NCBI RefSeq assembly: GCF_017939625.1 | Contig: NZ_JAGKTC010000002.1 | Span: 797,592-861,591, forward strand | Direction of reading: 5' to 3' | Source of the DNA: Pseudoxanthomonas helianthi | GTDB lineage: Bacteria > Pseudomonadota > Gammaproteobacteria > Xanthomonadales > Xanthomonadaceae | DNA length: 64,000 nt | Shown: one piece after another, positions 2,554 to 46,609 of the stretch | Numbering within the stretch: the stretch's first letter is position 1 | Layout of the letters: every line of letters begins with the position of its first letter | Notes under the pieces: generated by a model | Seen by the model: only the letters and a program-made list of their open reading frames with translations | Told to the model about the DNA's origin: nothing | Databases searched by the model: none | Made by a program: the position numbers and the translations under genes

Positions 2554-3957
2554 TTACACCCAGCCGGTCAGATAGAACATCGCGATCACGAAGAACACCG
2601 CCAGGGTCTTGATCGCGGTGATCGCGAACACGTCCTTGTACGACTGCCGATGGGTCAGGCCGGTCACCGCCAGCAAGGTGATCACCGCGCCGTTGTGCGG
2701 CAGGGTGTCCATGCCGCCGGAGGCCATCGCCGCCACGCGATGCAGCACGTCCATCGGGATGCCCGCTGCATGGGCATTGGCGATGAAGCTGTCGGCCATC
2801 GCCGCCAGCGCGATGCTCATGCCGCCGCTGGCCGAGCCGGTGATGCCGGCCAAGGCGGTGACCGACACGGCTTCGTTGACCAGCGGATTCGGGATGGCCT
2901 GCAGCGCATTGGCGACGACCAGGAAGCCGGGCAGGGCGGCGATCACCGCGCCGAAACCGTATTCCGATGCGGTGTTCATCGAAGCGAGCAGCGCGCCGCC
3001 GATGGCGCTCTTGGTGCCTTCGGCGAAACTCGCCAGCACCGGCTTCCAGGCGAAGGCGACCACACTGGCGATGCCGACTAGCAGCGCGCCCTGCACGGCC
3101 CAGATCGCGGCGACTTTCTTCACCTCCTGCACCACCGGATCGGGGTTGCCGATCACCGCCGGCACGAACGATTGCGATTCGCCGTACCAGCCGGGAATCC
3201 AGCGGGTGAACAGGAAATTCGCCACCCCGACCAGCACCAGCGGCAGCACCGCGAGCAAAGGATGGGCCAGTCTGTCGCCGCGGAAGACTTCCGGCTCGTT
3301 GCGCAGTTCGCCGCCGCTGGCGTAGCCCTCGCCGTTGCGCGCTGCGACGCGGCGGCGCCATTCCAGGTAGGCGAGGCCCACGGCCAGGACGAATGCGCCG
3401 CCCAGTGTGCCCAGCACCGGCGCGGCCCAAGCGGTGGTGCCGAAGAACGAGGTCGGGATGATGTTCTGGATCTGCGGCGTGCCCGGCAGCGCATCCATGG
3501 TGAAAGTGAAGGCGCCCAACGCGATGGTGCCGGGCACCAGCCGCTTGGGTATGTCGCTCTGGCGGAACAGTTCGGCGGCGAACGGATACACCGCGAATAC
3601 CACTACGAACAGCGACACCCCGCCATAGGTCAGCAAGGCGCAGACCAGCACGATCGACAGCATCGCCCGCTTCGCGCCGACCAGCCTGATCGTCGCCGTC
3701 ACGATCGATTTGGAGAAGCCGGAGATCTCGATCAGCTTGCCGAACACCGCGCCGAGCAGGAACACCGGGAAATACAGCTTCAGGAAGCCGACCATCTTTT
3801 CCATGAACAGGCCAGTGAACATCGGCGCGACCAGCGCCGGATCGGTCAGCAGCACCGCGCCCAGGGCGGCCACGGGCGCGAACAGGATCACGCTGTAGCC
3901 CCGGTAGGCCACGAACATCAGGAAGCACAGCGCGGCCACCACGATCAGAAACGACAT
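2554..3957 (-). CDS. GntP-family permease (probable 3-hydroxybutyrate or gluconate transporter)
   Basis: A 467-residue inner-membrane protein with about 12 hydrophobic segments and no signal cleavage site. GntP-family members are proton symporters for gluconate and other hydroxy acids, including 3-hydroxybutyrate. Family signatures include LLTYGGVSLFVVVFAVYPF, the TMDALPGTPQIQNIIPT loop, and the C-terminal ASGGMDTLPHNGAVITLLAV. GGAGGAG lies upstream of the ATG. It is divergent from a TonB-dependent receptor and close to a 3-hydroxybutyrate-oligomer hydrolase and the PHA synthase genes. That context favours 3-hydroxybutyrate as substrate; the sequence alone does not settle it. A GTAC-N4-GTAC box is 72 bp upstream, with a GATACT hexamer at 4003-3998. 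Confidence 0.82.
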   Translation of the reverse strand: MSFLIVVAALCFLMFVAYRGYSVILFAPVAALGAVLLTDPALVAPMFTGLFMEKMVGFLKLYFPVFLLGAVFGKLIEISGFSKSIVTATIRLVGAKRAMLSIVLVCALLTYGGVSLFVVVFAVYPFAAELFRQSDIPKRLVPGTIALGAFTFTMDALPGTPQIQNIIPTSFFGTTAWAAPVLGTLGGAFVLAVGLAYLEWRRRVAARNGEGYASGGELRNEPEVFRGDRLAHPLLAVLPLVLVGVANFLFTRWIPGWYGESQSFVPAVIGNPDPVVQEVKKVAAIWAVQGALLVGIASVVAFAWKPVLASFAEGTKSAIGGALLASMNTASEYGFGAVIAALPGFLVVANALQAIPNPLVNEAVSVTALAGITGSASGGMSIALAAMADSFIANAHAAGIPMDVLHRVAAMASGGMDTLPHNGAVITLLAVTGLTHRQSYKDVFAITAIKTLAVFFVIAMFYLTGWV

Positions 3958-4028
3958 GCACGACTCCTCCGGCCATGGCGCCGGTTGCAGTGCGGCGAGT
4001 ATCGGCAGCGTGCCGCCGGCCGTCCCCT

Positions 4029-4040
4029 GTACGAAGGTAC
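4029..4040. promoter_or_regulatory. GTAC-GAAG-GTAC palindrome, candidate activator site
   Basis: The box lies in the 170-bp divergent region between the GntP permease and the TonB receptor. On the plus strand, CTAGTC starts 25 bp downstream (4065). On the minus strand, GATACT begins 26 bp from the box (4003). The same GTAC-N4-GTAC arrangement occurs before the oligomer hydrolase at 12966. The spacing would centre the box near -42 for each start, which is normal for an activator. The regulator is inferred, not shown. Confidence 0.5.
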
Positions 4041-4127
4041 AAGTGAAGCTTTCGTTAGTCCTGCCTAGTCTCTGTACCGAATGGGCGGCAGCGGTCGTCC
4101 GCAGGTCATCCCTTGAGGAGGGGAACG

Positions 4128-6344
4128 ATGAAGCGCAAGTATTTGAGCCTGGCCATCGCCGGCATGCTGGTCTCGCCGGCGGCCTGGGCGCAGGACGCGG
4201 CGGCGACCGACGGCGGGGACAAGGCCAGCGAAGCCAAGACCCTCGATTCGGTCAAGGTCACCGCGCGCAAGCGCGAGGAAACCCTGCAGGAAGTCCCGGT
4301 CGCGGTCACCGCGTTCACGCCCGAGTCGCTGGAGAAGCTCAACGTGCGCGACCTCGGCGACCTCGACGCGCAGGTGCCGAACCTGACCGTGTACGCCGCG
4401 CGCGGTTCCACCAGCACGGTCACCGCCTACATCCGCGGCGTCGGCCAGGCCGATCCGCTGTGGGGCGTCGACCCCGGCGTGGGCATCTACCTGGACGACG
4501 TGTACATCGCCCGCCCACAGGGCGCGCTGCTCGACGTGTTCGACGTGGAGCGCATCGAAGTGCTGCGCGGCCCGCAGGGCACGCTGTACGGCAAGAACAC
4601 CATCGGCGGCGCGATCAAGTACATCTCGCGCGGGCTACCGAAGGAGACCACCGGTTTCGCCTCGGTCACCGTCGGCAACTACAACCAGCTCGACGCCAAG
4701 GCGGCGATCGGCGGTTCCATCGGCGGTCCCGACAGCGGCCTGCGCGCGCGCGTGGCCGTGGCCAGCATGAATCGCGACGGCTTCGGCGAGAACCTCCATA
4801 CGAAGCAGGACGTCAGCGACAAGGAAATCAATGCGGCCCGCGTGCAATTGGGCGCCTATGCCGGCGACGACTTCGACGTGCAGTTCGCCCTGGACTGGAT
4901 GGACGACCAGTCCGGCGTGCGCGGGGCGAAGATGCTGAAGGCCAATCCGCTGGCCCCGGCCTACCCGCCGCTGGACGACCGCTACGACATCCGCAGCGGC
5001 ATGAAGAACATCAACGACACCACCATGAAGGGCGGGTCGATGACGGTGAACTGGCGCCCGAACGAGGACTGGGCGTTCAAGTACGTCATCGCCAAGCGCG
5101 AGTCGGACACCGAGACCAACATCGATTTCGACACTACGCCGCTGACTCTGGTCGACGTGCGCGCCTTCTACCACGACAGCCAGGTCAGCAACGAAATCCA
5201 GGCCAACTACGACGGCGGCGGCCGCGCCCGCGGCGTGATCGGCGTGTACGCATTCAACGGCGATGCCGGCGGCCAGGTGCTAAACCACTTCTACAACCCG
5301 CTGCTGGCCACGGGCCTGACCAACCCGCTGTTCGGCGATACCCAGGGCGTGGTCAATACCAAGAGCGTGGCGGTCTACGCCGACTGGACCTTCGACCTGA
5401 CCGAAAGGCTGAAGCTGGACGTGGGCGCGCGCTACACCGATGAGGACAAGCACGCCATCGCGCTGAATCGCTTCTACACCGGCCTCGACTACACGACTTC
5501 GTGGGGCACGGCGGCGAACTTCGACAAGACCGTCAACTTCAAGAACGTTTCACCGAAGGTGTCGCTGGATTACCAGATCACTCCCGACATCATGGCCTAC
5601 GGACTGGCCTCGCGCGGCTTCAAGTCCGGCGGCTACAACATCCGCGCCAACACCACCGCGGTGCCGCGTTCGGGCGAACCCTTCGACGACGAAAGCGTCG
5701 ACAGCTACGAAATCGGCACCAAGATGGGCCTGTTCGACCAGAAGCTGTTCCTGAACCTGGCCGCGTTCCACAACGTGTACAAGGACATCCAGCTGTCGGT
5801 GTTCACTTCGTACACGCTGCCGAACGGTTCGCAGAGCTTCTTCGGTGACTTCACCAACGCCGGCAAGGGTACGGTCGATGGCCTAGAGGCGGAATACCAG
5901 TGGCTGCCGAGCGAGCACTGGGCGATCAGCGGCAACCTGGCCTGGCTGGACGCGAAATACGACGAGTTCATGGACCGTGGCGTCAACGTCGCCAAGTCGC
6001 AGAAGTTCACCAACGCACCGGAGTTCTCGGGCGCGTTGAACGTGGAATGGCGCACCGCGCTGGCCACCGGCGGCAACCTGTCGGCGCGGGTCGGCTACAG
6101 CTACCAGAGCGAGGTGTGGCCGACCACCGACCTGAGCCCGTTGATCAAGCAGGACGGCTATGGCCTGCTCAACGCCGGCGTGATCTGGAAGTTGGACGAC
6201 GCATGGTCGTTCTCCTTGCAGGGCAGCAACCTGACCGACGAGGAATACCGCACCACCGGCTACAACATCGGGGCTTATGGTGTGCTGACCGGTTTCTACG
6301 GCTCGCCGCGCCAGTTCAGCCTGACCGCGCGCTACGACTTCTGA
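4128..6344 (+). CDS. TonB-dependent outer-membrane receptor
   Basis: 738 residues. The signal peptide is residues 1-22 (ends AWAQ), followed by a TonB-box-like stretch LDSVKVTARKR. The plug domain includes YIRGVGQAD, VDPGVGIYLDDVYIAR and the EVLRGPQGTLYGKNTIGGAIKYI signature. The C-terminal barrel ends in the aromatic SLTARYDF. The start is the ATG behind AGGAGG (4116-4121); an in-frame TTG at 4113 lies inside that ribosome site. The substrate is unknown. Its divergent neighbour is a GntP permease and the shared control region carries a box repeated before a 3-hydroxybutyrate-oligomer hydrolase, so hydroxybutyrate oligomers are a reasonable guess. A weak terminator follows. Confidence 0.92.
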   Translation: MKRKYLSLAIAGMLVSPAAWAQDAAATDGGDKASEAKTLDSVKVTARKREETLQEVPVAVTAFTPESLEKLNVRDLGDLDAQVPNLTVYAARGSTSTVTAYIRGVGQADPLWGVDPGVGIYLDDVYIARPQGALLDVFDVERIEVLRGPQGTLYGKNTIGGAIKYISRGLPKETTGFASVTVGNYNQLDAKAAIGGSIGGPDSGLRARVAVASMNRDGFGENLHTKQDVSDKEINAARVQLGAYAGDDFDVQFALDWMDDQSGVRGAKMLKANPLAPAYPPLDDRYDIRSGMKNINDTTMKGGSMTVNWRPNEDWAFKYVIAKRESDTETNIDFDTTPLTLVDVRAFYHDSQVSNEIQANYDGGGRARGVIGVYAFNGDAGGQVLNHFYNPLLATGLTNPLFGDTQGVVNTKSVAVYADWTFDLTERLKLDVGARYTDEDKHAIALNRFYTGLDYTTSWGTAANFDKTVNFKNVSPKVSLDYQITPDIMAYGLASRGFKSGGYNIRANTTAVPRSGEPFDDESVDSYEIGTKMGLFDQKLFLNLAAFHNVYKDIQLSVFTSYTLPNGSQSFFGDFTNAGKGTVDGLEAEYQWLPSEHWAISGNLAWLDAKYDEFMDRGVNVAKSQKFTNAPEFSGALNVEWRTALATGGNLSARVGYSYQSEVWPTTDLSPLIKQDGYGLLNAGVIWKLDDAWSFSLQGSNLTDEEYRTTGYNIGAYGVLTGFYGSPRQFSLTARYDF

Positions 6345-6365
6345 CGCGGGCACGCACGGGGAACG

Positions 6366-6400
6366 ACGAGGCGGCGGGCGCAGGCCTGCCGCCTCGTTCG
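6366..6400 (+). terminator. Terminator-like hairpin after TonB receptor
   Basis: A 10-bp perfect stem ACGAGGCGGC/GCCGCCTCGT with a 12-nt loop, followed only by TCGTTT, so the T-tract is weak. Confidence 0.55.
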
Positions 6401-6451
6401 TTTATGCTTCGCGGATGGGAAGGGGCCTGCCATTGCTTCGTCGGTGCCGTT

Positions 6452-6487
6452 GCGGGAGCGGTAATGACAAGTCACTACCACTCCCAC
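6452..6487. repeat. Degenerate GTGGGAG-type palindrome
   Basis: Two 17-nt arms (GCGGGAGCGGTAATGAC and GTCACTACCACTCCCAC) pair at 14 of 17 positions around AA. It matches the GTGGGAGCGG class seen at 9837, 11707, 26741 and 60864. It lies just before the sensor kinase start. Confidence 0.6.
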
Positions 6488-6515
6488 GGGCGGGTTTCCT
6501 GGAGGGGATGAGGCC

Positions 6516-9500
6516 ATGCTGAGCGTCGGCGCGGTCGCGCTGGCCGGACTGCTGTGGCTGGCGCTGATGTTCGCCACGGCGCTGTACGGCGAACGCCATC
6601 CGACGCTGTTCGCCCGGCACTGGCGCCATGTCTACGCATTGTCGCTGGCAGTGCATTGCACGTCGTGGACGTTCTACGGCACGGTCACCCAGGCCGCGCG
6701 CTACGGCTGGCCGCTGCCGCCGACCTTCCTCGGCGCGATCCTGTTCTATGCGCTGGCGGTGGCCTTCATGGTCCGGCTGGTGCGGCTGGCGCGCGAAACC
6801 AACGCCACGTCCATTGCCGACCTGATCGCGACGCGGCTGGGCAAGGATGCGTGGCTGGCCGCGACCGTGACCGCGATTGCCGTGCTGGGCTTGATCCCTT
6901 ACATCGCGCTGCAGCTGAAGGCGGTGACGATGAGCTTCGCCACGCTGACCTCCGGCGCCGGCAGCGCGCCGGCTGCGTCGCCGTGGCGCGACAGCGCGCT
7001 GTACGTGGCGCTGGCGATGGCGCTGTTCGCGATGCTGTTCGGCACGCGCCGCGCCAGCGCCGCCGAGCACAACCGCGGCCTGGTGCTGGCGATGGCGTTC
7101 GAATCGCTGTTCAAGCTGGCGGCGATGCTGGCGCTGGGCGTTTTCGTCTGGTTCGGGCTGGAAGCGCTGCCCGAAGCCGACAAGCTCGCAGCGCCGCAAT
7201 CGGTCGGCGGCTTCGCGCCGCTGGTGCTGCTGGGTGCACTGGCGATGTTCATCCTGCCGCACCAGTTCCACGTAGGCGTGGTCGAATGCCGCGACGACCG
7301 CGACGTGGGCACGGCGCGCTGGCTGTTTCCGTTGTACTTGGTGCTGATCGCCTTGCCGGCGTTGCCGCTGGCGCGCGCGGGTACTGCGTTGCTCGGCGAC
7401 GGCGTGCCGTCGGACATGTATGCGCTGGCGCTGCCGTATTCGCAGGGGCGCGACGGCGTGGCCCTGTTCGCCTTTCTCGGCGGGCTCAGCGCGGCGACCG
7501 GCATGGTCGTGGTCAGCACGCTGGCGTTGAGCCTGATGATCGGCAACCACTGGTTCGCGCCGGGCTTGCTGCGCAGTGCGTGGTCGAAGGCGCACGGCGG
7601 GGACCGTCGCGGCGACGTGTTGCTGCTGCGCCGTGCTTGCATCGTCGCGATCATGCTGTCGGCGTGGGCCTACAGCCGCTGGATCGGCGGCAACGATGCG
7701 CTGGCCGATGTCGGCGCGGTCAGCTTCTCGGCACTGGCCACGCTGGCGCCGGCGCTGGGTTTCGCGGTGTGGCGACCGCAGACGCCGCCGCGCGCGGCCA
7801 TCGTCGGCGTGGTCGGCGGCTTCGCGGTATGGGCCTGGGTGATGCTGGTGCCGATGCTGGCCGGGCAGGGCGACGCTGCGCCGGCCTGGTTGCGCGAAGG
7901 GCCGCTGGGACAGGCCTGGCTTTCGCCGACGGGCCTGTTCGGCCTGACCGGCTGGAGTCCGCTGGGCCGTGCGGTCGGCGCCAGTCTGTTCGTCGGCATC
8001 GTGCTGACCGTGCTGTCCGCCGGCTGGCGTCGCGAAGCGCCGCGCTTCGCCGGACGTCGCCTCGGCCGCGAAGCGTTGCGTGCCGCCGGCTTGCGCTTCC
8101 TTGCCCGCGAGCGCGTCGAACAACTGCTCGCCGATGCGCCTGCTGTCGGCCCGGTGCCGGACGCGATGGAAGCGCGGGTCGAACGCGAACTGTCGGCGGT
8201 GCTCGGCGCCGCATCGGCGCGCCTGCTGCTGAACGCGGCGCGCAGCGAGGCCGGCGAACTCGAAACCGTCGCCGCCATCGTCGGCGAGGCTTCGCAGGAC
8301 CTGCGCTTCAACCAGCAGTTGCTCGAAGCTGCGTTGCAGAACATGAGCCAGGGCATCAGCGTGGTCGACCGCGAGCAGCGTCTGGTCGCTTGGAATCGTC
8401 GCTACGCCGAGTTGTTCGGTTTTCCGGAGGAACTGCTGCAGGTCGGTCGTCCCATCGCCGACCTGACCCGCTGGTCATTGCAGCGCATGCCGCATCGCGG
8501 CTCCGACGAGGCCGCGCTGCAGCGCAGGCTGGCCTTCATGCGCGCGGGCACGCCGCACCTGACCGAGCGCGTGTTCCCCGATGGCAGCGTCATCGAGATC
8601 CGCGGCAACCCGATGCCCGGTGGCGGATTCGTGGCCACCTACACCGACGTCAGCGATTCGCGTCGCGCGGAAGCCGAACTGAAGCGCGCCAACGAAACCC
8701 TGGAGCAGCGCGTGGCCGAGCGCACCGCCTTGCTGGAAACGGCCAAGCGCGAGGCCGAGCACGCCAACGACGCGAAGAGCCGCTTCCTCGCCGCGATCGG
8801 CCACGACCTGCTGCAGCCGCTGCATGCCGCGCACCTGTTCACCGACGCGCTGGCCCAGCAATTGCCCGAGAAGCGCGAACCGGTGGAACAATTGCGCGGC
8901 GCCCTGCATTCCACCACCGATTTGCTGACCGGCCTGCTCGACATGTCGCGGCTGGAAGCCGGCGGGCTGGTGCCGGAGCCGCGCGAATTCCCGCTGGCCG
9001 AAGTGCTGGAACCCCTGGCGTCGGAATTCCGCGCGCTGGCGGCCGAACGCGGCCTGCGCTTCGTGCACGTACCGACGCGCGCGTGGACCCGCAGCGACCC
9101 GCAACTGCTGCGGCGGATACTGCAGAACTTCCTCGCCAACGCGGTGCGCTATACGCCGCGCGGCGGCATTCTGCTAGGCGTGCGCCATGCCGCAGGCAAA
9201 TTGCGCGTGGAAGTGCACGACACCGGGCCTGGCATCGCCGAACACGAATCGCAAGCGATCTTCGAGGAATTCCGCCGTGGCGAGGACGCCGCGGGGCAGG
9301 GGCTGGGCCTCGGCCTGTCGATCGCGGACCGCATTTCGCGCCTGCTCGATGCGCCGCTGTCGCTGCGCAGCCGGCTCGGCGCCGGTACTGTATTCGCGGT
9401 CGAGCTGCCGCGCGTGGTTTCGCGCAAGCCAGCATCCCCGGCCCCGATACGCAGCGGTTCGGCCGGGCGCACTTTGTTGCTAGTCGACAACGATCTCGTC

Positions 9501-9851
9501 GCGCTGGAGGCATTGCGGCAGATGCTGGAAGGGTGGGGTTGCCGCGTATTGGTGGCGACAGACGGCGAGGGCGCGGAGATGGCTTTGGACAATGGGCCGG
9601 CCGACGCGTGGTTGTTCGATTTCCACCTCGATCACGGTGATACCGGCGTTGCCTTGTACGAACGTCTTTCGGCGCGCCTTGGCGCGCAACCTTGCCTGAT
9701 CCTCAGCGCCGACCAGACGGGTGCCGTGCGCCACGCCGTGCAACAGGCCGATTTGCCGCTGCTGTCGAAGCCGTTGCGTCCGCTGGCGTTGAAATCGGTA
9801 TTGGACAGATTGCTGGCCGCGCGCGTTGTGGCGGCCGTGGGAGCGACGTAA
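6516..9851 (+). CDS. SLC5-type hybrid sensor histidine kinase/response regulator
   Basis: 1111 residues. Residues 1 to about 510 form a sodium-solute-symporter-like membrane domain (hydrophobic segments throughout, e.g. CTSWTFYGTVTQAARYGW). A PAS domain follows at about 615-720 (LQNMSQGISVVD), then a coiled coil. The HisKA domain has phospho-acceptor His763 in IGHDLLQPL. The HATPase domain has N-box LANAVRYT, DTGPGIAEHE and GLGLGLSIA. A C-terminal receiver has acidic D991 and phospho-acceptor D1035. This layout is that of CrbS/MxtR and CbrA kinases, which link acetate or carbon status to gene expression. A LuxR-type regulator of the matching kind lies at 12244-12909. The last codons and the TAA come from a repeat element (9837-9898). 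Confidence 0.92.
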   Translation: MLSVGAVALAGLLWLALMFATALYGERHPTLFARHWRHVYALSLAVHCTSWTFYGTVTQAARYGWPLPPTFLGAILFYALAVAFMVRLVRLARETNATSIADLIATRLGKDAWLAATVTAIAVLGLIPYIALQLKAVTMSFATLTSGAGSAPAASPWRDSALYVALAMALFAMLFGTRRASAAEHNRGLVLAMAFESLFKLAAMLALGVFVWFGLEALPEADKLAAPQSVGGFAPLVLLGALAMFILPHQFHVGVVECRDDRDVGTARWLFPLYLVLIALPALPLARAGTALLGDGVPSDMYALALPYSQGRDGVALFAFLGGLSAATGMVVVSTLALSLMIGNHWFAPGLLRSAWSKAHGGDRRGDVLLLRRACIVAIMLSAWAYSRWIGGNDALADVGAVSFSALATLAPALGFAVWRPQTPPRAAIVGVVGGFAVWAWVMLVPMLAGQGDAAPAWLREGPLGQAWLSPTGLFGLTGWSPLGRAVGASLFVGIVLTVLSAGWRREAPRFAGRRLGREALRAAGLRFLARERVEQLLADAPAVGPVPDAMEARVERELSAVLGAASARLLLNAARSEAGELETVAAIVGEASQDLRFNQQLLEAALQNMSQGISVVDREQRLVAWNRRYAELFGFPEELLQVGRPIADLTRWSLQRMPHRGSDEAALQRRLAFMRAGTPHLTERVFPDGSVIEIRGNPMPGGGFVATYTDVSDSRRAEAELKRANETLEQRVAERTALLETAKREAEHANDAKSRFLAAIGHDLLQPLHAAHLFTDALAQQLPEKREPVEQLRGALHSTTDLLTGLLDMSRLEAGGLVPEPREFPLAEVLEPLASEFRALAAERGLRFVHVPTRAWTRSDPQLLRRILQNFLANAVRYTPRGGILLGVRHAAGKLRVEVHDTGPGIAEHESQAIFEEFRRGEDAAGQGLGLGLSIADRISRLLDAPLSLRSRLGAGTVFAVELPRVVSRKPASPAPIRSGSAGRTLLLVDNDLVALEALRQMLEGWGCRVLVATDGEGAEMALDNGPADAWLFDFHLDHGDTGVALYERLSARLGAQPCLILSADQTGAVRHAVQQADLPLLSKPLRPLALKSVLDRLLAARVVAAVGAT

Positions 9852-9898
9852 GTCGCGATGCTCTTGCATAAAAGCATCGCGACTTACGTCGCTCCCAC
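9837..9898. repeat. REPIN-like inverted pair (GTGGGAGCGACG class)
   Basis: Two 25-nt arms (head GTGGGAGCGACGTAAGTCGC; tail ending CGTCGCTCCCAC) are fully complementary around a 12-nt spacer. The left arm encodes the last residues (VGAT) and the stop codon of the sensor kinase. Confidence 0.88.
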
Positions 9899-9970
9899 GA
9901 CATGCGGTCGCGGCGCGTGCGACGCGGTTGCACTACGATCCGATTCCGTTCCCGGCAGGCCGTTCGCTTC

Positions 9971-11074
9971 GTGAGCAAGAAATCCCCCGACATCAACCAG
10001 CTGCGCCGTTACGCGATCGCGCGCAGCTTGTTCAAGCCGACCGCCCTGGGTACTGCGATCAAACGGTTGGGATTCGTCCAGGCCGACCCGATGCGCGCTC
10101 CGGCGCGGGCCCAGGACCTGATCCTGCGCCACCGGGTCCGCGATTACCGCGCCGGTGAACTCGAACGGCGTTATCCGCGACTGGGCATCGAGGAAGACTG
10201 CTTCGTCAACTACGGTTTCCTGCCGCGCGAGGCGCTGCCGCTGCTGCATCCGCGCACCGCCCGGCGCGAATGGGATGCGAAAACGCGCCGGCACGCCGCC
10301 GAGCTGCTCGAATTCGTGCGCCAGCACGGGCCGACCCACCCGACGGACGTGCTGGAAGCCTTCAGCCATCATGGCCGCCAACCCGGCTACTGGGGCGGGG
10401 AACTCAACGTCAGTACCCAGTTGCTGGATGGCCTGCATTACCGCGGCCTGTTGCGGGTCAAGCGGCGCGATGGCGGTACCCGCGTCTACGAGGCCGTCGA
10501 ACACCCACCCGCGGACGACAGCCCGGCCGCCCGCCAGGCCCGCGCCGAGGCATTGCTGGACATCGTCGTCGCCCTGTATGCGCCGTTGCCAGCGGCCAGC
10601 CTGGGTTACCTGACGTCGTTGCTGGGTTATGGCGCGCCGCATCTGCGGATGGAGGCACGGCAGGCCTTCAGGCAGGCGAAGGCGCGTTACGCGCATGCAT
10701 CGGTCGACGGCCAGACCTGGTTCTGGCCGGCCGACGAAAACCCGGCTTCGCGACGGCATGCGCCGGACGCAACGCTGCGCCTGCTCGCGCCGTTCGATCC
10801 CATCGTCTGGGATCGGCGCCGGTTCGTGCGGTTCTGGGGCTGGACCTACAAGTTCGAGGCCTATACGCCGGCGGCGAAGCGCACGATGGGCCATTACGCA
10901 TTGCCGCTGTTGTGGGGCGAGCACATGCATGGCTGGGCCAACCTGCGCGTGGAAAAGGGTGTGCTGAAGCACGAGCTCGGCTTCGCGGGCGCTTCGCCGC
11001 GCGGCGCGGCGTTCAAGGCGGCGCTGGAGGAGGAACTGCAGCGGATGCGGGTATTCCTCGGCCTCGAGCGGTAG
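9971..11074 (+). CDS. YcaQ/AlkX-like winged-helix DNA glycosylase family protein
   Basis: A 367-residue protein of the HTH_42/YcaQ family, whose E. coli and Streptomyces members unhook DNA crosslinks. It has the N-terminal winged-helix start (INQLRRYAIARS), the catalytic QxD motif as Q37-A38-D39 in FVQADPMRAPARAQDL, and the C-terminal LLAPFDPIVWDRRRF motif followed by YTPAAKR. The length is typical. GTG at 9971 is preferred because the family begins near this point. An upstream in-frame ATG at 9902 would add 23 unconserved residues. The TAG stop lies inside the GTAG head of the following repeat. Its neighbours do not suggest a pathway. Confidence 0.8.
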   Translation: MSKKSPDINQLRRYAIARSLFKPTALGTAIKRLGFVQADPMRAPARAQDLILRHRVRDYRAGELERRYPRLGIEEDCFVNYGFLPREALPLLHPRTARREWDAKTRRHAAELLEFVRQHGPTHPTDVLEAFSHHGRQPGYWGGELNVSTQLLDGLHYRGLLRVKRRDGGTRVYEAVEHPPADDSPAARQARAEALLDIVVALYAPLPAASLGYLTSLLGYGAPHLRMEARQAFRQAKARYAHASVDGQTWFWPADENPASRRHAPDATLRLLAPFDPIVWDRRRFVRFWGWTYKFEAYTPAAKRTMGHYALPLLWGEHMHGWANLRVEKGVLKHELGFAGASPRGAAFKAALEEELQRMRVFLGLER

Positions 11075-11164
11075 GAACGCACCTGGGCGCGACCGGGAAT
11101 TGTCCGGCTGAGAAATTTTCCGCGTGGTGCCATGTGGCTCGGTCGCGCCCAGGTGCGTTCCTAC
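11071..11164. repeat. Long perfect inverted repeat (GTAGGAACGCACC class)
   Basis: 25-nt arms at 11071-11095 and 11140-11164 are perfectly complementary, begin with GTAG and end with CTAC, and enclose 44 nt. The GTAG provides the stop codon of the YcaQ-like gene. Confidence 0.85.
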
Positions 11165-11200
11165 AATAAAATTCGTGATCGCCGCTTCGGAAATTCCCGC

Positions 11201-11689
11201 ATGCCTTACACCCCCATCGTCGCCACCCTCGGCTACGTGTTTTCGCCGGATCGGAAACAGGTGCTGATGATCCATCGCAACACGCGTCCGGGCGACCTGC
11301 ACCTGGGCAAGTACAACGGCTTGGGCGGCAAGATTGAAGCCGATGAGGACGTGGTGGCCTGCATGCGCCGCGAGATCCGCGAGGAAGCGGGCATCGAATG
11401 CGACGAACTGTCGTTGCGCGGCACGATCAGCTGGCCCGGCTTCGGCAAGCACGGCGAAGACTGGTTGGGCTTCGTCTTCGTGGTGACGCAGTTCTCCGGC
11501 GAGCCCTATGCGAGCAATCCGGAAGGCACCCTGGAATGGGTCGACGTGGACCGGATCATGGACCTGCCGCTGTGGGACGGCGACCGCCAGTTCCTGCCGC
11601 TGGTGTTCGACGACGATCCGCGTGCATTCCATGGGGTCATGCCGTATCGCGACGGCAAGATGGTGTCCTGGGCCTACTCGCGGATTTGA
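11201..11689 (+). CDS. NUDIX hydrolase, 8-oxo-dGTP diphosphatase-like
   Basis: 162 residues. The complete Nudix box GX5EX7REUXEEXGU runs from G43 to I65 (GKIEADE, then REIREEAGI) and places the metal-binding glutamates. The GKYNGLGGKIE context and the WPGFGKHGEDWLGFVFV strand resemble MTH1-type enzymes that cleave 8-oxo-dGTP or related oxidised nucleotides. The ATG at 11201 is chosen because sequence upstream of it belongs to the inverted repeat. No clear ribosome site is seen. The exact substrate is not determined. Confidence 0.85.
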   Translation: MPYTPIVATLGYVFSPDRKQVLMIHRNTRPGDLHLGKYNGLGGKIEADEDVVACMRREIREEAGIECDELSLRGTISWPGFGKHGEDWLGFVFVVTQFSGEPYASNPEGTLEWVDVDRIMDLPLWDGDRQFLPLVFDDDPRAFHGVMPYRDGKMVSWAYSRI

Positions 11690-11706
11690 GCGCCAGAATA
11701 TTCGGC

Positions 11707-11788
11707 GTGGGAGCGACGTAAGTCGCGATGCTTTTGCCCTTTATCCGGCAACAGAGCTGAAAAGCATCGCGACTAACGTCGCTCCCAC
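11707..11788. repeat. REPIN-like inverted pair (GTGGGAGCGACG class)
   Basis: Arms at 11707-11731 and 11764-11788 are the same class as 9837-9898, with one mismatch (TTACG/TAACG) and a longer spacer. It lies between the convergent Nudix and GNAT genes. Confidence 0.85.
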
Positions 11789-11811
11789 ACCAGATATCAG
11801 GAGTGGACGGG

Positions 11812-12189
11812 CTACAGCGGCTTCGAATACACGTGTTGGGTCTTCTTGCGCACGTAGCCATGCTTCTCGTAGAACGGATGCGATTCGACGCGCACCGCGT
11901 TGGAGCGGACGACAAGGCGGTCGTAGCCGAGTTCGCGCGCCCAATCCTCGGCCGCGCCTGTCAGCGCCGCACCCAAGCCAGTGCGTCGGGCCCGTGAATC
12001 CACCACCAGCCCGACGATCTCGGCCTGCTCGCCGCCTTCCAGGCTGAGGCGGCGTTCCACGCCGATCCAGCCGAGCAGGCCGTTTTCGGCGGAGGCGACG
12101 ATCACATGGCGGTTCGGATCGTCGAGCACGATCCGCAACCGCGGCGCCATGGCGTCGGCGTCCACGGGATAGCCCAGCTCGGTCGACAA
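11812..12189 (-). CDS. GNAT-family N-acetyltransferase
   Basis: At least 125 residues. The acetyl-CoA binding motif A is clear (IVGLVVDSRARRTGLGAAL), followed by VRSNAVRVESHPFYEKHGYV, typical of small GNAT enzymes. The given start is TTG at 12189. In-frame sequence continues upstream to 12240 and reads ISPLRPARPEDAAEIARL, which looks like the normal first strand and helix of the GNAT fold. No ATG, GTG or TTG exists there, so translation may begin at ATT 12240 or CTG 12231, coupled to the response-regulator stop at 12244. The substrate is unknown. Confidence 0.75.
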   Translation of the reverse strand: MSTELGYPVDADAMAPRLRIVLDDPNRHVIVASAENGLLGWIGVERRLSLEGGEQAEIVGLVVDSRARRTGLGAALTGAAEDWARELGYDRLVVRSNAVRVESHPFYEKHGYVRKKTQHVYSKPL

Positions 12190-12243
12190 GCGGGCGATTT
12201 CGGCCGCATCTTCCGGGCGCGCGGGGCGCAGGGGCGAAATCCA

Positions 12244-12909
12244 TCAGCCTTCCACCAGCCGCGCGGGATCGGAGAGTTCCAGTTCGCGCAGCACCACGCC
12301 GGCCTGGGTGCGGTTGCGCACGCCGAGGCGGTCGAAGATCGCGGACAGGTGCGCCTTGACCGTGCGTTCCTGCACGTCGAGCTTGTCGGCGATCTGCTTG
12401 TTCAGCAGGCCCTGGGCGACGAAGTTCAGCACGCGGAATTGCTGCGGCGACAGGCTGGCCAGGCGCGAGGCGAGTTCGGCGTCGTGCGCGGACGAAGGCG
12501 CGCGAGCGACCGCTGCGCGCAACGTGGCCGGCAGCCATTGTTCGCAGGCCAGCACGCTGCGGATGGCGTCGCGCAATTCCTCCAGCCCCGAACTCTTCGG
12601 CAGGTAGCCGGCCGCGCCGTGGTCCAGGGCGCGGCGCACCACGCGCGGATCGTCGTTGGCCGAGACCACCACCACCGCCACGGCAGGGAACTGTGCGCGG
12701 ATCGCAGCCAGCCCGGCCAGGCCGTGGTTGCCGGGCATGTGCAGGTCCAGCAGCACCAGGTCGATGTCGGGGTGGGCTTCCAGCGCCTGCAGCACGCCGT
12801 CCAGCGATTCGGCTTCCAGCACCGAAAGCTGGGCCACTGCGTCCGCGGCGGCCCCGCGCAGTGCGGCGCGGAACAGCGGGTGGTCGTCGGCGATCAGCAG
12901 TCTGGGCAT
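12244..12909 (-). CDS. LuxR-type response regulator, CrbR/ErdR-like
   Basis: 221 residues. An N-terminal receiver (acid pocket D8-D9, phospho-acceptor D55 in LVLLDLHMPG, K in YLPKSS) is joined to a C-terminal LuxR helix-turn-helix (LSPQQFRVL, NKQIADKLDVQERTVKAHLSAIF). The sequence style matches CrbR/ErdR regulators that partner SLC5-type kinases; such a kinase is at 6516-9851. The start is the ATG before PRLLIADDH; 41 upstream in-frame residues have no similarity to the family and read through the divergent promoter. It is divergent from the 3-hydroxybutyrate-oligomer hydrolase, with a GTAC-N4-GTAC box between them. Confidence 0.9.
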   Translation of the reverse strand: MPRLLIADDHPLFRAALRGAAADAVAQLSVLEAESLDGVLQALEAHPDIDLVLLDLHMPGNHGLAGLAAIRAQFPAVAVVVVSANDDPRVVRRALDHGAAGYLPKSSGLEELRDAIRSVLACEQWLPATLRAAVARAPSSAHDAELASRLASLSPQQFRVLNFVAQGLLNKQIADKLDVQERTVKAHLSAIFDRLGVRNRTQAGVVLRELELSDPARLVEG

Positions 12910-12965
12910 GGTCGGAATTGTCGCAGGACCCGCCGAAGCTAGCAGCAAAGCCGCTTCGCGTCGTG

Positions 12966-13007
12966 GTACCAAAGTACGATGACGCCACCGCCGGCCCGCG
13001 CTAGCTT
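12966..13007 (+). promoter_or_regulatory. GTAC-CAAA-GTAC box and -10 region of the oligomer hydrolase
   Basis: The box is at 12966-12977 and TAGCTT at 13002-13007. The box-to-CTAG distance is 24 bp, against 25 bp at the TonB receptor promoter (4029-4070). A start site about 7 bp downstream would fall on or next to the ATG at 13014, so the mRNA may be leaderless. The -10 call is by eye. Confidence 0.45.
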
Positions 13008-13013
13008 GCACGC

Positions 13014-14864
13014 ATGAACAAGAATCCGTCATTGCGCGCCGCCACCGTGGCGTTGGCCTGCCTGCTGTCCGCCTGCGCGGGCAATCCCGTCCAATCGCCG
13101 GAGAAGATCGCGATGGTGCAACCGCAGCGCGTCACCGAGCACCGCGGCAGCGATGACCTGCTCACCGCCGGCCTCGGCCTGGACGGCCTGCGCGCGATAG
13201 CGCCGCCCACCTTTGCCGATCCCGCGCATCCGACTGCCGCCGAAACGCGCCGCCGCGCGATCTGGAGCAACTGGCGTGGCATCGCCGACCTGTCGCCGAA
13301 CGGCGGCTACGGCCAGGTCTACGGCAGCGTGGCGGCGGTGCCGGGTCGCGAATTCAGCGCCTTCGCCCGCGTGCCGGGCGCGAAGCAACCGCATCGCGTG
13401 CTGGTGCAGGTGCCGGATGCCTTCGACACGGGCAAGCGTTGCGTGCTGGTTGCGCCGGCCTCGGGTTCGCGCGGCGTGTACGGCGCCATCGCGGTGGCCG
13501 GCGCCTGGGGCCTGCCGAAAGGCTGTGCCGTCGCCTATACCGACAAGGGCGCGGGCACCGACTACTTCGATCTGGAAGCGAAGCAGGGCACGAAGCTCGA
13601 CGGCACGCCAGGCAAGGCCGGCGTGGATGAACTCGCCTTCGTCCCGGACATGCTTGAGGGCAGGCCGGCCGATGCGAAGGGCGTCGCGTTCAAGCACGCG
13701 CATTCGCAGGACAACCCGGAAGCGGATTGGGGCAAGCATGTGAAGCAGGCGGCGGAATTTGCCCTCGTTTCGCTGGACCAGGCATTCCCGAACGCCGCGC
13801 CGTTCACCTTCGAAAACACGCGGGTGATCGCGGTCGGCATTTCCAACGGCGGCGGCGCCGTGCTGCGTGCGGCCGAGGGCGACAGTGATTGGCTGGATGC
13901 GGTCGTCGCCGGAGAACCGAACGTGTACGTCGATAGCCTTGGCGGACGCCCGCTTTACGACGTCGCCACCGAAGCCGCGCTGCTGATGCCGTGCGCGCTG
14001 CTGCACCTGCCGGCCGACTCGCTGCCGCAGCCACCGGTGCATGCGCAGGTCGAGCCGTTGTGGAAAGCGCGTTGCGCGACCTTGAAGGCGGCGGGGCTGG
14101 TCGAGGGCGACAGCGCCGAGACGCAGGCCAGGTCGGCCTACGACAAGCTGCGTGCGAACGGCTGGACCGACGAATCGCTGCATGCTGGCGCATTGAGCGT
14201 CGGCTTCGACCTGTGGCGTTCGGTCGCGGTGACCTATGCCTCGGCCTATGGCCGTTATGCCGTCGGCGCGCATCCGTGCGGTTATGCGTTCTCCGCGCAG
14301 AACCCGGACTTCAGCGCACGCGTCGCGACGGACATCGAGCGCGCGGCCTGGTGGAGCGACAGCGCCGGCATTCCGCCGGGCAACGGCGTCGGCATCGTCG
14401 ACATGAAGCTCGCGCCGCCGGACTTCACTCTGCCGGGCCTGCAATGCCTGCGCGCGCTGTGGGACGGACAAGGCGACGACGCCAAGCGCGTACGCGAAGG
14501 CATCTTGGCGACACGCGCGGGCCTGCCGCGCAAGGGCCTGCCGGTACTGGTCGTGCACGGCACCGACGACGGCCTGGTGCCGCCCGCCTTCACCAGCGCG
14601 CCCTACGTGGCCGCGGCGCAGGCGGCGGGGCGCGACGTGCGTTACTGGCGGGTGCGCAATGGCGAGCATTTCGACGCGTTCCTCGCGTTCCCGGCCTACG
14701 GCGCGCGCTACACGCCGATGCTGCCGCAGTTCTACGCCGCACTGGACCGCATCCAGGCGTACCTGGACGGGAAGGGCGGGCTTCCGGCCGACGCGACGAT
14801 CGCGGCCGAAGGCCGCGGCGCGGGTGCGGTGCGAACGGAACAGTTCGCCATTCCCAGGCCGTAG
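13014..14864 (+). CDS. D-(-)-3-hydroxybutyrate oligomer hydrolase, lipoprotein
   Basis: 616 residues. It belongs to the family that hydrolyses 3-hydroxybutyrate oligomers to monomers during PHB breakdown. The lipobox LLSAC places the lipidated Cys at 21, so the protein is anchored outside the cytoplasm and probably acts on imported or extracellular oligomers. The alpha/beta-hydrolase nucleophile is Ser277 in AVGISNGGG. The LVVHGTDDGLVPP stretch and the late GEHFDAF probably hold the Asp and His. No ribosome site precedes the ATG. It is divergent from the LuxR regulator and upstream of phaE-phaC. Confidence 0.88.
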   Translation: MNKNPSLRAATVALACLLSACAGNPVQSPEKIAMVQPQRVTEHRGSDDLLTAGLGLDGLRAIAPPTFADPAHPTAAETRRRAIWSNWRGIADLSPNGGYGQVYGSVAAVPGREFSAFARVPGAKQPHRVLVQVPDAFDTGKRCVLVAPASGSRGVYGAIAVAGAWGLPKGCAVAYTDKGAGTDYFDLEAKQGTKLDGTPGKAGVDELAFVPDMLEGRPADAKGVAFKHAHSQDNPEADWGKHVKQAAEFALVSLDQAFPNAAPFTFENTRVIAVGISNGGGAVLRAAEGDSDWLDAVVAGEPNVYVDSLGGRPLYDVATEAALLMPCALLHLPADSLPQPPVHAQVEPLWKARCATLKAAGLVEGDSAETQARSAYDKLRANGWTDESLHAGALSVGFDLWRSVAVTYASAYGRYAVGAHPCGYAFSAQNPDFSARVATDIERAAWWSDSAGIPPGNGVGIVDMKLAPPDFTLPGLQCLRALWDGQGDDAKRVREGILATRAGLPRKGLPVLVVHGTDDGLVPPAFTSAPYVAAAQAAGRDVRYWRVRNGEHFDAFLAFPAYGARYTPMLPQFYAALDRIQAYLDGKGGLPADATIAAEGRGAGAVRTEQFAIPRP

Positions 14865-14972
14865 TTGCATACGTAACCACATGTTCGGCGGTGTTGCGCC
14901 GCATGGACCCGAAGCTCAGGGAAAATTCCATTCCGATTGCTATGATCGGAACGGTAGCTGGGAGGGTGGAAG

Positions 14973-16337
14973 ATGTTCGGCAACGGATTCGGAAATTTCG
15001 GCAACGGTGGCCTCGGCGGCAGCGATTTCGAATCGCTGGCGCGTCAGTACTGGAACGCCTGGGGCGAGGCTATGCGCCAGGGCGCGGCAGGGGCGGGCCT
15101 GTCGGGCGCGAACCCGTCGGGCTGGCAACAAGCCACCCAATGGTGGGCGCAATTGCTGCCGGGCATGCAACCCGACGCGATGGGCGCGGTGCATCGCTTC
15201 AACCAGTTGGCCAGCGGCTGGTTCGGACAGATGCAGCAGGTCGCGGCGCAGTTCGCCGGACAGGACGGCAGCGCCGCCGACATCGCCAGGGCTTGGCGTG
15301 AAGCGCTGGGCGCCGACGCCGCGGACGCCAATCCCTTCGCCGACCTGTTCCGCACCATGCAGTCCGGTGGGCAGGAAAGCCTGAACAACTGGCTGGAACA
15401 GGCCGCGCCCTACCTCCAGGCGCTGCAGGCCGTCGCCCAGGGCGACCAGTCGCGCTGGCTGCACGTGCCGACGTTCGGCCTGGCCCGCGAACACCAGGAG
15501 CGCTGGCAGGCGCTGCTGCAGGCGCAGCAGGACTACCAGCAACGCAACAACGACTACAACGCGCTGATGCTGAAGACGCTGCAGCATGCGTTGTCGCTGT
15601 TCGAGGACAAGTTGGCCGAGCACGAGGAACCCGGTCGCCAGTTGACCAGCGCACGCGCGCTGTTCGACCTGTGGATCGACGCGGCCGAGGAAGCCTACGC
15701 GCAGGCTGCCCTGTCGGAGTCGTTCCGCGAGGTCTACGGCGCGCTGACCAACGCGCAGATGCGCCTGCGTTCGTCGGTGCAGGTGGAAATCGAGAAGATC
15801 TGCGGCCTGTTCGGCATGCCGACGCGCACCGAGGTCGATTCGGCGCACCGCAAGATCGTGCAGCTCGAGCGTGCGATGCGCCAGCAGGCACGCGAACCGA
15901 AAGCGAAGACGGCTGCGGCCCGCAGGCAACCCACGACGGCCGCCGAGCCGGTCCCGGCGCCAGCGCCGGCTGCCAAGACGGAGAAAACCAAGGCCCCGGC
16001 GAAAAAGCCTGCGAAGAAGGCCGCGAAAGCGGCAGCGCCGAAGGCGACGAAGAAAAAGACCGTGCGGCGCCGCGCGGCCGCGAAGCGGGACAGCAAGCCT
16101 ACTGCGAGCGCGAAGCCGCGCAGCAAGGCCGCGCCGCGTCGCGCGGTCGCGAGCCGTGCGGTCTCGCCGAGCAAGCGCGCCGCGGCGAAACCTGCGGTCG
16201 CGGCAGCGCCGAAGAAGCCGCCGTCCAAGGGCAACATTGTGTCGATGAAGGACTGGGTCGCGCGTTACGCGCCACCGGCGCCGCTCGGCCCGGAACCATC
16301 CGCCAGGCGCAATGGCAAGAAGGGTGAACGCCAATGA
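14973..16337 (+). CDS. phaE: Class III PHA synthase subunit PhaE with histone-like tail
   Basis: 454 residues. PhaE pairs with PhaC to polymerise 3-hydroxyacyl-CoA into PHB. Residues 1 to about 300 are the helical PhaE body (WNAWGEAMRQG, QATQWWAQLLPG, FGLAREHQERWQ, then LRSSVQVEIEKICGLFGMPTRTEVDS, the conserved PhaE end). Residues about 305-435 form a very basic Ala/Lys/Pro/Arg repeat region (many KKPAKKAAK-like and RRAAAK-like units) like histone H1 or the tail of Ralstonia PhaM. Such a tail is not part of a standard PhaE of about 360 residues. GGGAGGGTGGAAG precedes the ATG. It overlaps phaC by 4 bases. Confidence 0.88.
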   Translation: MFGNGFGNFGNGGLGGSDFESLARQYWNAWGEAMRQGAAGAGLSGANPSGWQQATQWWAQLLPGMQPDAMGAVHRFNQLASGWFGQMQQVAAQFAGQDGSAADIARAWREALGADAADANPFADLFRTMQSGGQESLNNWLEQAAPYLQALQAVAQGDQSRWLHVPTFGLAREHQERWQALLQAQQDYQQRNNDYNALMLKTLQHALSLFEDKLAEHEEPGRQLTSARALFDLWIDAAEEAYAQAALSESFREVYGALTNAQMRLRSSVQVEIEKICGLFGMPTRTEVDSAHRKIVQLERAMRQQAREPKAKTAAARRQPTTAAEPVPAPAPAAKTEKTKAPAKKPAKKAAKAAAPKATKKKTVRRRAAAKRDSKPTASAKPRSKAAPRRAVASRAVSPSKRAAAKPAVAAAPKKPPSKGNIVSMKDWVARYAPPAPLGPEPSARRNGKKGERQ

Positions 16338-17404
16338 ACGGCCCGCTCAATTTCACCGCCGAGGCCCTGGCCAAGGAAGCATTGGGCCTGCAGCAGAAGC
16401 TCGCCGCCGGGTTGAAGATCCTGCCCGAAGTCGACGATGTGCACTACGGTGCGACGCGCAAGGAAGAAGTCTGGCGCGACGGCAAGGTGGCGCTGTACCG
16501 TTTCGTCGGCGAGAACAAGCCGACCGCGAAGCTGCCGCTGCTGATTTCCTATGCGCTGGTCAACCGTCCGTACATGGTCGACCTGCAGGACGACCGTTCG
16601 CTGGTCAGGGGCCTGCTGGCGCAGGGCCAGGACGTCTACATCATCGACTGGGGCTATCCCGACCGCTCCGACCGCTTCCTCGAGCTGGGCGACTACATCA
16701 ACCGCTTCATCGATGGTGCGGTCGACCACCTGCGCGAAGCCCACGGCGTCGATGCGATCAACCTGCTCGGCATCTGCCAGGGCGGCGCGTTTTCGCTGTG
16801 CTATTCGGCGCTGCACGCGGACAAGGTCAAGAACCTGATCACCATGGTCACGCCGGTGGATTTCCACACGCCGGACAACATGCTGTCGAACTGGACCCGG
16901 CAGATGGACGTGGACCTGTTCGTCGACACGCTGGGCAACGTGCCGGCGGACCTGATGAACGCCAGCTACCTGATGTTGAAGCCGTTCCGGCTGAACCTGC
17001 AGAAGTACCTGGGCCTGGTCGACATCCTCGACGACAAGCGCGCGATCGAGGATTTCCTGCGCATGGAGAAATGGATCTTCGACTCGCCCGACCTGGCCGG
17101 CGAAGCCTTCCGCCAGTTCATCAAGCAGTTCTACCAGGGCAACGGCTTCGTCAACGGCGGCATCGTCATCGACGGCGAAGAAGTGGACCTGGGCTTCGTC
17201 GACATGCCGGTGCTGAACATCTACGCCGAGCAGGACCACCTGGTGCCGCCGGACGCTTCGCGCGCGCTGGCGAAACTCGCCGGCAGCACCGATTACAGCG
17301 AATTGAGCTTCAAGGGCGGGCACATCGGCATCTATGTTTCCAGCCGCGCCCAGCGCGAAGTGCCGGCGTCGATCCACGACTGGCTGACCCGGCGTTCGCG
17401 CTGA
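16334..17404 (+). CDS. phaC: Class III poly(3-hydroxyalkanoate) synthase subunit PhaC
   Basis: 356 residues, the length of class III PhaC. The catalytic triad is visible: Cys148 in the lipase-like box GICQGG, Asp301 in YAEQDHLVPP and His330 in GGHIGIYVSS. Conserved stretches VYIIDWGYPD and NWTRQMDVDLF are also present. It forms a complex with PhaE and makes cytoplasmic PHB granules. The ATG overlaps the phaE stop (ATGA), so the two are translationally coupled. No phaA, phaB or phasin gene is nearby. Confidence 0.95.
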   Translation: MNGPLNFTAEALAKEALGLQQKLAAGLKILPEVDDVHYGATRKEEVWRDGKVALYRFVGENKPTAKLPLLISYALVNRPYMVDLQDDRSLVRGLLAQGQDVYIIDWGYPDRSDRFLELGDYINRFIDGAVDHLREAHGVDAINLLGICQGGAFSLCYSALHADKVKNLITMVTPVDFHTPDNMLSNWTRQMDVDLFVDTLGNVPADLMNASYLMLKPFRLNLQKYLGLVDILDDKRAIEDFLRMEKWIFDSPDLAGEAFRQFIKQFYQGNGFVNGGIVIDGEEVDLGFVDMPVLNIYAEQDHLVPPDASRALAKLAGSTDYSELSFKGGHIGIYVSSRAQREVPASIHDWLTRRSR

Positions 17405-20823: not shown

Positions 20824-20855
20824 CGTCGTTCTTGTCGGGGAATGCGTGGACGGAA

Positions 20856-21930: not shown

Positions 21931-21973
21931 GGTCGATCTCCTTTCAGGTGGGTGTAACCCTACGACGAACGAG

Positions 21974-24586: not shown

Positions 24587-24703
24587 GCTCGGCACCCTTG
24601 GCTGGCGCATCGGCGCCGTTCGCAGGTCCGGAGGTTAGCCGGCCGCGCGGCACTGCCGAATACGACAAAGGGCTTAGCCTCGCGACTAAACCCCCTGTGA
24701 TGT

Positions 24704-46456: not shown

Positions 46457-46595
46457 TCCTCGGCCTTGGGCCGAGGTGTGCGCCGCGAATCGCAAGATGC
46501 TGCGGCGCAACAGTTTTTCATCTTGATTTCATCGCCTAAGTAACTGAAATAACTTATGTTGCTGGTGCACATAACGAGGGCTTTACATCTGGATT

Positions 46596-46609
46596 TGTAA
46601 ACGATTACA
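46596..46609. promoter_or_regulatory. LacI-type operator before lacI gene
   Basis: TGTAAACGATTACA, the most symmetric of the four copies, is 44 bp before the lacI ATG and suggests autoregulation. Confidence 0.75.

Follow-up and report, generated by a model that had tools for sequence, protein, structure and literature searches.

How does a Gram-negative bacterium bring fragments of poly(3-hydroxybutyrate) (PHB) through its outer membrane? PHB occurs widely as a natural polyester and serves as a biodegradable plastic; the route of its fragments through this membrane seems to have received little study. The question is raised by positions 2,554 to 17,404 of a 64,000-nucleotide stretch of DNA from Pseudoxanthomonas helianthi (contig NZ_JAGKTC010000002.1, positions 797,592 to 861,591), which is called the window here and belongs to a four-contig genome of 3.59 Mb. 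In it a permease, a divergent TonB-dependent receptor, a hybrid histidine kinase, a response regulator and a hydrolase of 3-hydroxybutyrate (3HB) oligomers, together called the module, lie beside the genes phaE and phaC of a polyhydroxyalkanoate (PHA) synthase. We consider it likely that this is a polyester-utilisation locus that imports 3HB oligomers. The first-pass annotation of the window had named these seven genes, and all were found as open reading frames at or near the places that it claimed for them. Judged by the hydrolase, the closest named relatives in our survey of loci belong to Pseudoxanthomonas. The genes are the following:

2554..3957, minus strand: inner-membrane permease of the type annotated as GntP, likely an (R)-3HB importer, with plasmid relatives that are 70-75% identical
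4113..6344, likely start 4128, plus strand: TonB-dependent receptor, candidate importer of 3HB oligomers (PF07715, PF00593)
6516..9851, plus strand: hybrid histidine kinase with a predicted SLC5 fold, paralogue of the CrbS-like kinase linked to acs (Pfam domains, predicted fold)
12244..12909, listed frame to 13032, minus strand: NarL/LuxR-type response regulator, CrbR/ErdR paralogue (best model ErdR)
13014..14864, plus strand: predicted lipoprotein, 3HB-oligomer hydrolase (PF10605, GISNG, lipobox)
14973..16337, plus strand: phaE, class III PHA synthase subunit, probably outside the regulon (TIGR01834 above cut-off)
16334..17404, plus strand: phaC, class III PHA synthase, probably outside the regulon (TIGR01836 above cut-off)

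The hydrolase matches PF10605 over its whole length (455.6 bits against a cut-off of 27), and its GxSxG motif reads GISNG at residue 275. An LSAC lipobox was recognised by eye; as a predicted lipoprotein the enzyme would be located outside the cytoplasm. The receptor contains a Plug domain (PF07715, 71.7 bits) and a beta-barrel domain (PF00593, 150.7 bits), both above their cut-offs, and an ATG at 4128 is a more likely start for it than a TTG at 4113. Similarly, the regulator more likely starts at 12909 than at 13032. The permease has no match in Pfam or NCBIfam; PF02447 was not matched by it up to an E value of 10, nor by two orthologues, and was matched by four permeases that have taken its place in relatives. 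The earlier assignment to the GntP family is corrected to this extent, yet the plasmid relatives at 70-75% identity carry the GntP annotation wherever they are annotated. Searching for solved structures by sequence gave one weak match for the hydrolase (E 0.31) and none for the permease. The class III models for PhaE (208.2 bits, cut-off 154.95) and PhaC (547.1 bits, cut-off 365.3) identify the last two genes.

Linkage of the module genes was examined in two surveys. The first covered 149 genomes of the same bacterial family, from 54 genera, with hydrolase, receptor, permease, kinase, regulator and phaC as queries; identity limits of 60% for the receptor, 75% for the permease, 50% for the kinase and 54% for the regulator set these genes apart from paralogues, smaller pieces of one hydrolase gene were omitted, and counts that involve the regulator hold among the matches listed. 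Hydrolase, receptor, permease and kinase were all present in 71 genomes, all missing from 37 and present in part in 41, while receptor genes at least 60% identical to ours were found in 87. Kinase and regulator occurred together in 105 genomes, were both missing from 41 and occurred singly in only 3. In 83 of the 87 receptor-bearing genomes a permease is encoded no more than 3 kb from the receptor; regulator and hydrolase are at most 4 kb apart in 96 of the 102 genomes with both, and kinase and hydrolase at most 12 kb apart in 86 of 103. The module genes co-occur beyond chance. The first-pass annotation would have been undermined by a receptor and permease unlinked to the hydrolase in other genomes, and the survey of 149 genomes favours linkage.

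The second survey took 80 named loci (of 87), with flanks of up to 10 kb, from genomes that overlap those of the first. The regulator was present in 72 of these loci, phaE in 59, phaC in 56, the kinase in 55, the receptor in 45 and the permease in 39. Permease, receptor, kinase, regulator and hydrolase stand together in 39 loci, with order and strands identical in every one; the remaining 41 are without one or more of the five within the 10-kb flank or the contig.

Are these genes also under common control? Reading the two divergent promoters of the module revealed that they have the palindrome GTAC-N4-GTAC in common, which gives two candidate operators:

4026..4043, no strand: candidate operator CCTGTACGAAGGTACAAG in the divergent promoter of permease and receptor (GTAC-N4-GTAC at 4029)
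12963..12980, no strand: candidate operator GTGGTACCAAAGTACGAT in the divergent promoter of regulator and hydrolase (GTAC-N4-GTAC at 12966)

The window holds three such palindromes, 0.15 being expected. The third, at 59636, was rejected as an operator, lying inside a long reading frame. The whole genome has the palindrome in 13 places, 11 of which do not fit a pattern that was refined with the help of relatives. This pattern has two matches genome-wide, both in the module promoters, and one when reversed, a figure that is partly built in because the pattern was drawn from these same promoters.

A looser pattern, GKMC-N4-GTMC, was then counted on either strand within 250 bases upstream of genes in the 80 loci, two short loci being excluded for the hydrolase and loci without 250 upstream bases for the other genes. 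It was found upstream of the hydrolase in all 71 loci with a linked regulator and in one of the 7 without (p 2.7e-8); the pattern was chosen after viewing some of the relatives, the contrast by regulator presence was not. The receptor is preceded by it in 36 of 38 loci (the misses are L142 and L143), and it is kept in all nine loci in which the receptor has been replaced by one that is only 30-33% identical. These nine are L089, L094, L101, L107, L123, L128, L129, L150 and L158. Upstream of the kinase (1/47), phaE (3/56) and phaC (4/56) the pattern is about as frequent as in random 250-base stretches of the loci (184 of 3864). The regulator has it in 33 of 72 loci, as expected, since regulator and hydrolase share a gap. 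Twenty genomes were chosen because the halves of the module are separated, in some cases on separate draft contigs, or because a member has been swapped. Here the pattern was present in 20 of 20 permease/receptor stretches, where shuffled sequences led us to expect 4.2, and in 16 of the 18 hydrolase stretches counted (two excluded for length, misses in G114 and G126), where they led us to expect 4.5. The sequences thus show that the operator pattern is conserved and that it depends on the regulator being present; the module regulator would bind it.

The sensor system that would act through these sites resembles CrbS/CrbR, as had been proposed. In the kinase, Pfam recognises PAS_7, HisKA, HATPase_c and receiver domains; the N-terminal part gave no Pfam match up to an E value of 10, and PF00474 was not matched. 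A STAC domain, which in CrbS links the SLC5 and kinase parts, was not reported by any of the scans. An AlphaFold2 model of residues 1-575, with a mean predicted local distance difference test score (pLDDT) of 80.8, had 35 matches in the PDB at an E value of 0.001 or below, and the best 32 of these are the SLC5-type transporters CHT1, NIS, SGLT1/2, vSGLT, SMCT1, SiaT or plant DUR3, with template modelling scores (TM-scores) of about 0.5-0.6. Plant DUR3 is a member of the SLC5 family. As modelled, the N-terminus of the kinase is an SLC5 fold. The best model for the regulator is ErdR, at 217-218 bits against a cut-off of 390, and the regulator linked to acs likewise stays below, at 242 bits.

The likeness in domains stands, but the genome has a separate pair near acs. 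A second CrbS-like kinase and CrbR-like regulator are encoded near this gene (L179, C1:1160000-1179900), whose identity is given by TIGR02188 (1005 bits, cut-off 724.95). The acs promoter carries TTACGACCAAGGTCTAAGC; this site, and similar ones in two other acs promoters that could be read, fit the examples of the CrbR operator, ACTU, in PMC5715377. Some 30 bases upstream of the ACTU site a second, half-like site was seen by eye in three acs promoters. Module regulator and acs-linked regulator are 51% identical. In a midpoint-rooted tree of 41 of 76 rows (35 module and 6 acs-linked, two long branches flagged) the two groups separate at 100/100. Their recognition helices have the consensus VQERTVKAHL in the module group and VSEATIKAHV in the acs-linked group, and, by analogy with NarL, this is the helix that contacts DNA. 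An ACTU-like operator was also looked for in the module; the sole match in the window, at 24661 and with one mismatch, lies outside the module and was discarded.

Since a separate acs-linked pair with a canonical operator is present, the module pair is to be regarded as its paralogue, and by these sequence comparisons the module has a paralogous sensor system of its own, with its own operator. In the commonest case the operator ends 33 bases before the start of the hydrolase gene, a spacing that would suit an activator beside the -35 box, as for ACTU, and the regulator would accordingly activate rather than repress. Related SLC5 kinases serve acetate use (PMC5715377, PMC8402216) and pyruvate use (PMC9100948). 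The module kinase may respond to 3HB, and the duplication may have led from the acetate sensor to the module pair.

The remaining genes of the relatives' modules point to the substrate. In 39 of the 80 loci the gap between regulator and hydrolase holds a 3HB dehydrogenase gene, which is closer to one query type in 21 and to another in 18; three more loci have it elsewhere and 38 are without it. Seven of these dehydrogenases were scanned, of which five pass TIGR01963 and two pass NF009093, one of them barely (258.7 against 258). L108 and L165 have kept hydrolase, 3HB dehydrogenase and phaE-phaC; a regulator is not in reach in either locus, and the hydrolase is not preceded by the operator pattern.

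At least 25 of the 149 genomes, from ten genera, have an esterase of the PHB-depolymerase type (TIGR01840) at a distance of about 3.3 kb or less from the gene for receptor, permease or kinase. Thirty places with such an esterase were assessed among the matches listed, 25 of them beside the module and 5 not. Among the same matches five of the at least 25 esterases score above the TIGR01840 cut-off and 20 below, one of the five having been scanned. Three of the five, in genus g29, adjoin permease or receptor and have a signal peptide by eye; two, in genus g16, are near a second receptor copy that is 54% identical. In ten loci that were opened (L196-L202, L204, L208 and L210) the esterase is a predicted lipoprotein encoded between receptor and kinase, and in L203 it adjoins the receptor. 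The lipoprotein esterases of L198, whose genome is among the at least 25, and L210, whose genome is outside that list, match the PHB depolymerase of PDB entries 2d80/2d81 over nearly their full length (1.4e-46 and 1.1e-40). In genus g29 (L191, L192 and L193) the depolymerase-type esterase by permease or receptor is accompanied by an extra alpha/beta hydrolase and an AMP-ligase, in L193 also by a MaoC-type gene, and this module may be a variant suited to longer hydroxyacids. L194 and L195 (genomes G138 and G090) have, at a site separate from the main module, the second receptor copy (54%) with an alpha/beta hydrolase and an acyl-ligase; a TIGR01840 esterase lies some 2 kb away.

On plasmids of Azospirillum, Cupriavidus, Klebsiella and Pseudomonas (four of the five regions opened), permease relatives that are 70-75% identical share a gene run with a 3HB dehydrogenase, and three of these four regions also have coenzyme A (CoA)-transferase genes. 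One Klebsiella pneumoniae plasmid (L213) has a single run in which 3HB dehydrogenase, CoA-transferase and thiolase accompany the permease relative. Three plasmid regions of Alphaproteobacteria contain receptor relatives of 36-37% identity; apart from an acyl-ligase-like match, their surroundings gave no module gene at an E value of 1e-8. In one of these regions an annotated alpha/beta hydrolase adjoins the receptor relative.

Taken together, the linkage, the dehydrogenases and esterases in the modules of relatives, the neighbours of the plasmid permeases and the common operator give good support to the original proposal that 3HB oligomers are captured and used. Depolymerases made by other organisms would free the oligomers from outside PHB; in some relatives the esterases of the locus itself would do so. 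The TonB-dependent receptor would carry the oligomers across the outer membrane; the lipoprotein hydrolase, periplasmic or placed at the outer membrane, would cut them to 3HB, which the permease would move into the cell. There it would be oxidised to acetoacetate by a 3HB dehydrogenase, whose gene is part of the module in roughly half of the named loci and lies elsewhere in the present genome. The SLC5-fold kinase may sense 3HB or a related short acid and phosphorylate the regulator, which would then bind GTAC-N4-GTAC in both divergent promoters and switch on permease, receptor and hydrolase. The pair of kinase and regulator is a paralogue of the acetate system CrbS/CrbR in which the operator has changed.

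A number of observations weigh against import of 3HB oligomers by this locus, or against parts of the evidence for it. It is by its neighbouring genes, and by these only, that the receptor is matched with 3HB oligomers as ligand. Receptor and hydrolase lie within 20 kb of each other in only 66 of the 84 genomes with both, the wider distances being partly draft contigs and partly real splits. The Fisher p values for joint presence are tiny, but they treat genomes as independent and are inflated by shared ancestry; similarly, the operator patterns were drawn after viewing the module promoters and some 30 relatives, and the two surveys overlap, so that the conservation counts are not fully independent. 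A simple lipobox scan was blank for 15 of 78 hydrolases, and the predicted model of the permease is poor (pLDDT 56) and gives no basis for a fold call. In P. helianthi itself the dehydrogenase slot of the module is empty, such an enzyme being encoded elsewhere in the genome, and no esterase of this genome exceeds the TIGR01840 cut-off, with three weak matches among those listed. A lipoprotein depolymerase is present in only 3 of the 80 named loci, and the secreted kind in none. The fifth plasmid region, from Mycetohabitans, has neither 3HB dehydrogenase nor CoA-transferase genes, and the operator pattern was not found on either strand in the 400 bases before the five plasmid permeases.

Another reading, close to the tie with PHB storage seen in the first-pass annotation, is that the locus recovers fragments of the cell's own PHB or couples uptake to storage, with phaE and phaC as functional members. 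In its favour are the frequency of both genes in the named loci, a distance of at most 5 kb between phaC and hydrolase in 60 of the 97 genomes with both, and a weak trend for joint presence of phaC with the permease (p 0.064). However, phaC, which occurs in 133 of the 149 genomes, is independent of hydrolase (Fisher p 0.77), receptor (0.28), kinase (0.39) and regulator (0.40). The other 16 genomes have no match to class III phaC, the one PHA synthase class searched, at an E value of 1e-80 or below, and some of them, members of genera g10 and g42, have the module. The operator pattern is only at background at the phaE and phaC promoters, and the hydrolase, as a predicted lipoprotein, would lie outside the cytoplasm. 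We therefore regard the tie with storage as quite unlikely, and phaE and phaC as probably neighbours outside the regulon. There is a small but real chance that the receptor imports another ligand under the same regulator, such as an iron chelate, a vitamin, longer hydroxyalkanoates or fragments of plant polyester: its best subfamily model is of the siderophore type, albeit with 169 bits against a cut-off of 223.5, and the MaoC-type and AMP-ligase genes of the g29 module would suit longer hydroxyacids. Operator, PHB-depolymerase-type esterases, oligomer hydrolase and permease linkage nevertheless indicate 3HB.

It is very improbable that the locus is the CrbS/CrbR acetate system itself and its neighbours an extended regulon. 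The domain layout is identical and ErdR is the best model, but the second kinase and regulator near acs have the canonical ACTU site, the regulator groups are separate and the operators differ. We give next to no credence to a neighbourhood without common function whose gene order has merely been frozen. Such inheritance of gene order is frequent within families; yet the genes are present or absent jointly, the operator persists where modules are split or receptors swapped, and two distinct types of 3HB dehydrogenase occupy one slot. Uptake of 3HB oligomers under a dedicated sensor system accordingly remains the explanation that we prefer.

Other genes of the window were noted in passing. Between kinase and regulator, a Pfam scan identified AlkZ-like, NUDIX and GNAT genes, which the first-pass annotation had not mentioned. 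By eye, positions 19618-24610 contain genes that resemble prpF and acnD of the methylcitrate cycle, and positions 44150-54191 a sugar-type cluster with a glycosidase-like protein, a LacI-type regulator, a large TonB receptor and a halogenase-like protein. A phasin gene (PF05597) lies shortly past the end of the window (L180:7902-8450).

How does the locus compare with known systems? An extracellular 3HB-oligomer hydrolase of Pseudomonas sp. strain A1 was reportedly described in 1997, and we take this enzyme to belong to PF10605. The module hydrolase is like those of this family in its whole-length match and GxSxG motif; it differs in being a predicted lipoprotein and in being encoded with a receptor, a permease and a sensor. 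In Pseudomonas aeruginosa, PA2003-PA2004 presumably encode a 3HB dehydrogenase with a GntP-type permease, and to our knowledge neither a receptor nor an oligomer hydrolase is present at this HbcR/bdhA operon. Dehydrogenase and GntP-type permease are thus alike, whereas HbcR is a sigma-54 activator, one that responds to (R)-3HB (PMC10482368). In Alteromonas macleodii, a carbon-responsive TonB receptor adjoins a PHB depolymerase (MASE_06600) and growth on PHB has been suggested (PMC7190382). The passage gives the case as a list item and mentions neither an oligomer hydrolase nor a permease or a sensor pair; it is likened to ours by gene context.

The earlier statement that no TonB receptor for hydroxybutyrate oligomers has been described has to be qualified by this mention in passing; no description of such a locus was found. 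In the literature searched, mostly without subscription papers, '3-hydroxybutyrate oligomer' and 'TonB-dependent receptor' were not treated jointly, which is weak evidence, and searches there on PHB depolymerase, GntP, 3HB permease and oligomer hydrolase did not bring up a description of this locus.

Like CrbS/CrbR (MxtR/ErdR) of Vibrio and Pseudomonas, the module has a predicted SLC5-fold hybrid kinase with PAS and receiver domains, a NarL-type regulator and, as operator, an imperfect palindrome around a four-base centre (ACTU in the case of CrbR; PMC5715377). Unlike CrbS/CrbR, the module is not beside acs, and its likely targets are receptor, permease and hydrolase; its half-sites are TAC/GTA (or GAC, GTC) in GKMC-N4-GTMC, compared with KAC-N4-GTC in ACTU. 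On balance we lean towards seeing here a new class of nutrient locus with a dedicated 3HB-oligomer receptor, in which a duplicated acetate sensor was re-tuned to 3HB with a matched change of helix and half-site, and receptors and permeases were swapped while the operator stayed constant. With two paralogous sensor systems, each with an operator of its own, the genome offers a clean case for studying how a duplicated two-component system gains a new signal and new targets, and the locus supplies genes, an operator and a family-wide pattern that are open to testing.

The SusCD/CUT loci for carbohydrates combine a TonB receptor, a surface or periplasmic hydrolase, an inner-membrane carrier and a sensor of their own. 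The module differs from them in that its substrate would be a polyester and in that no SusD-type protein was seen among the genes scanned. The locus is best read as having the layout of a TonB-based carbohydrate locus, with a polyester as its likely substrate and a paralogue of the acetate sensor in control.

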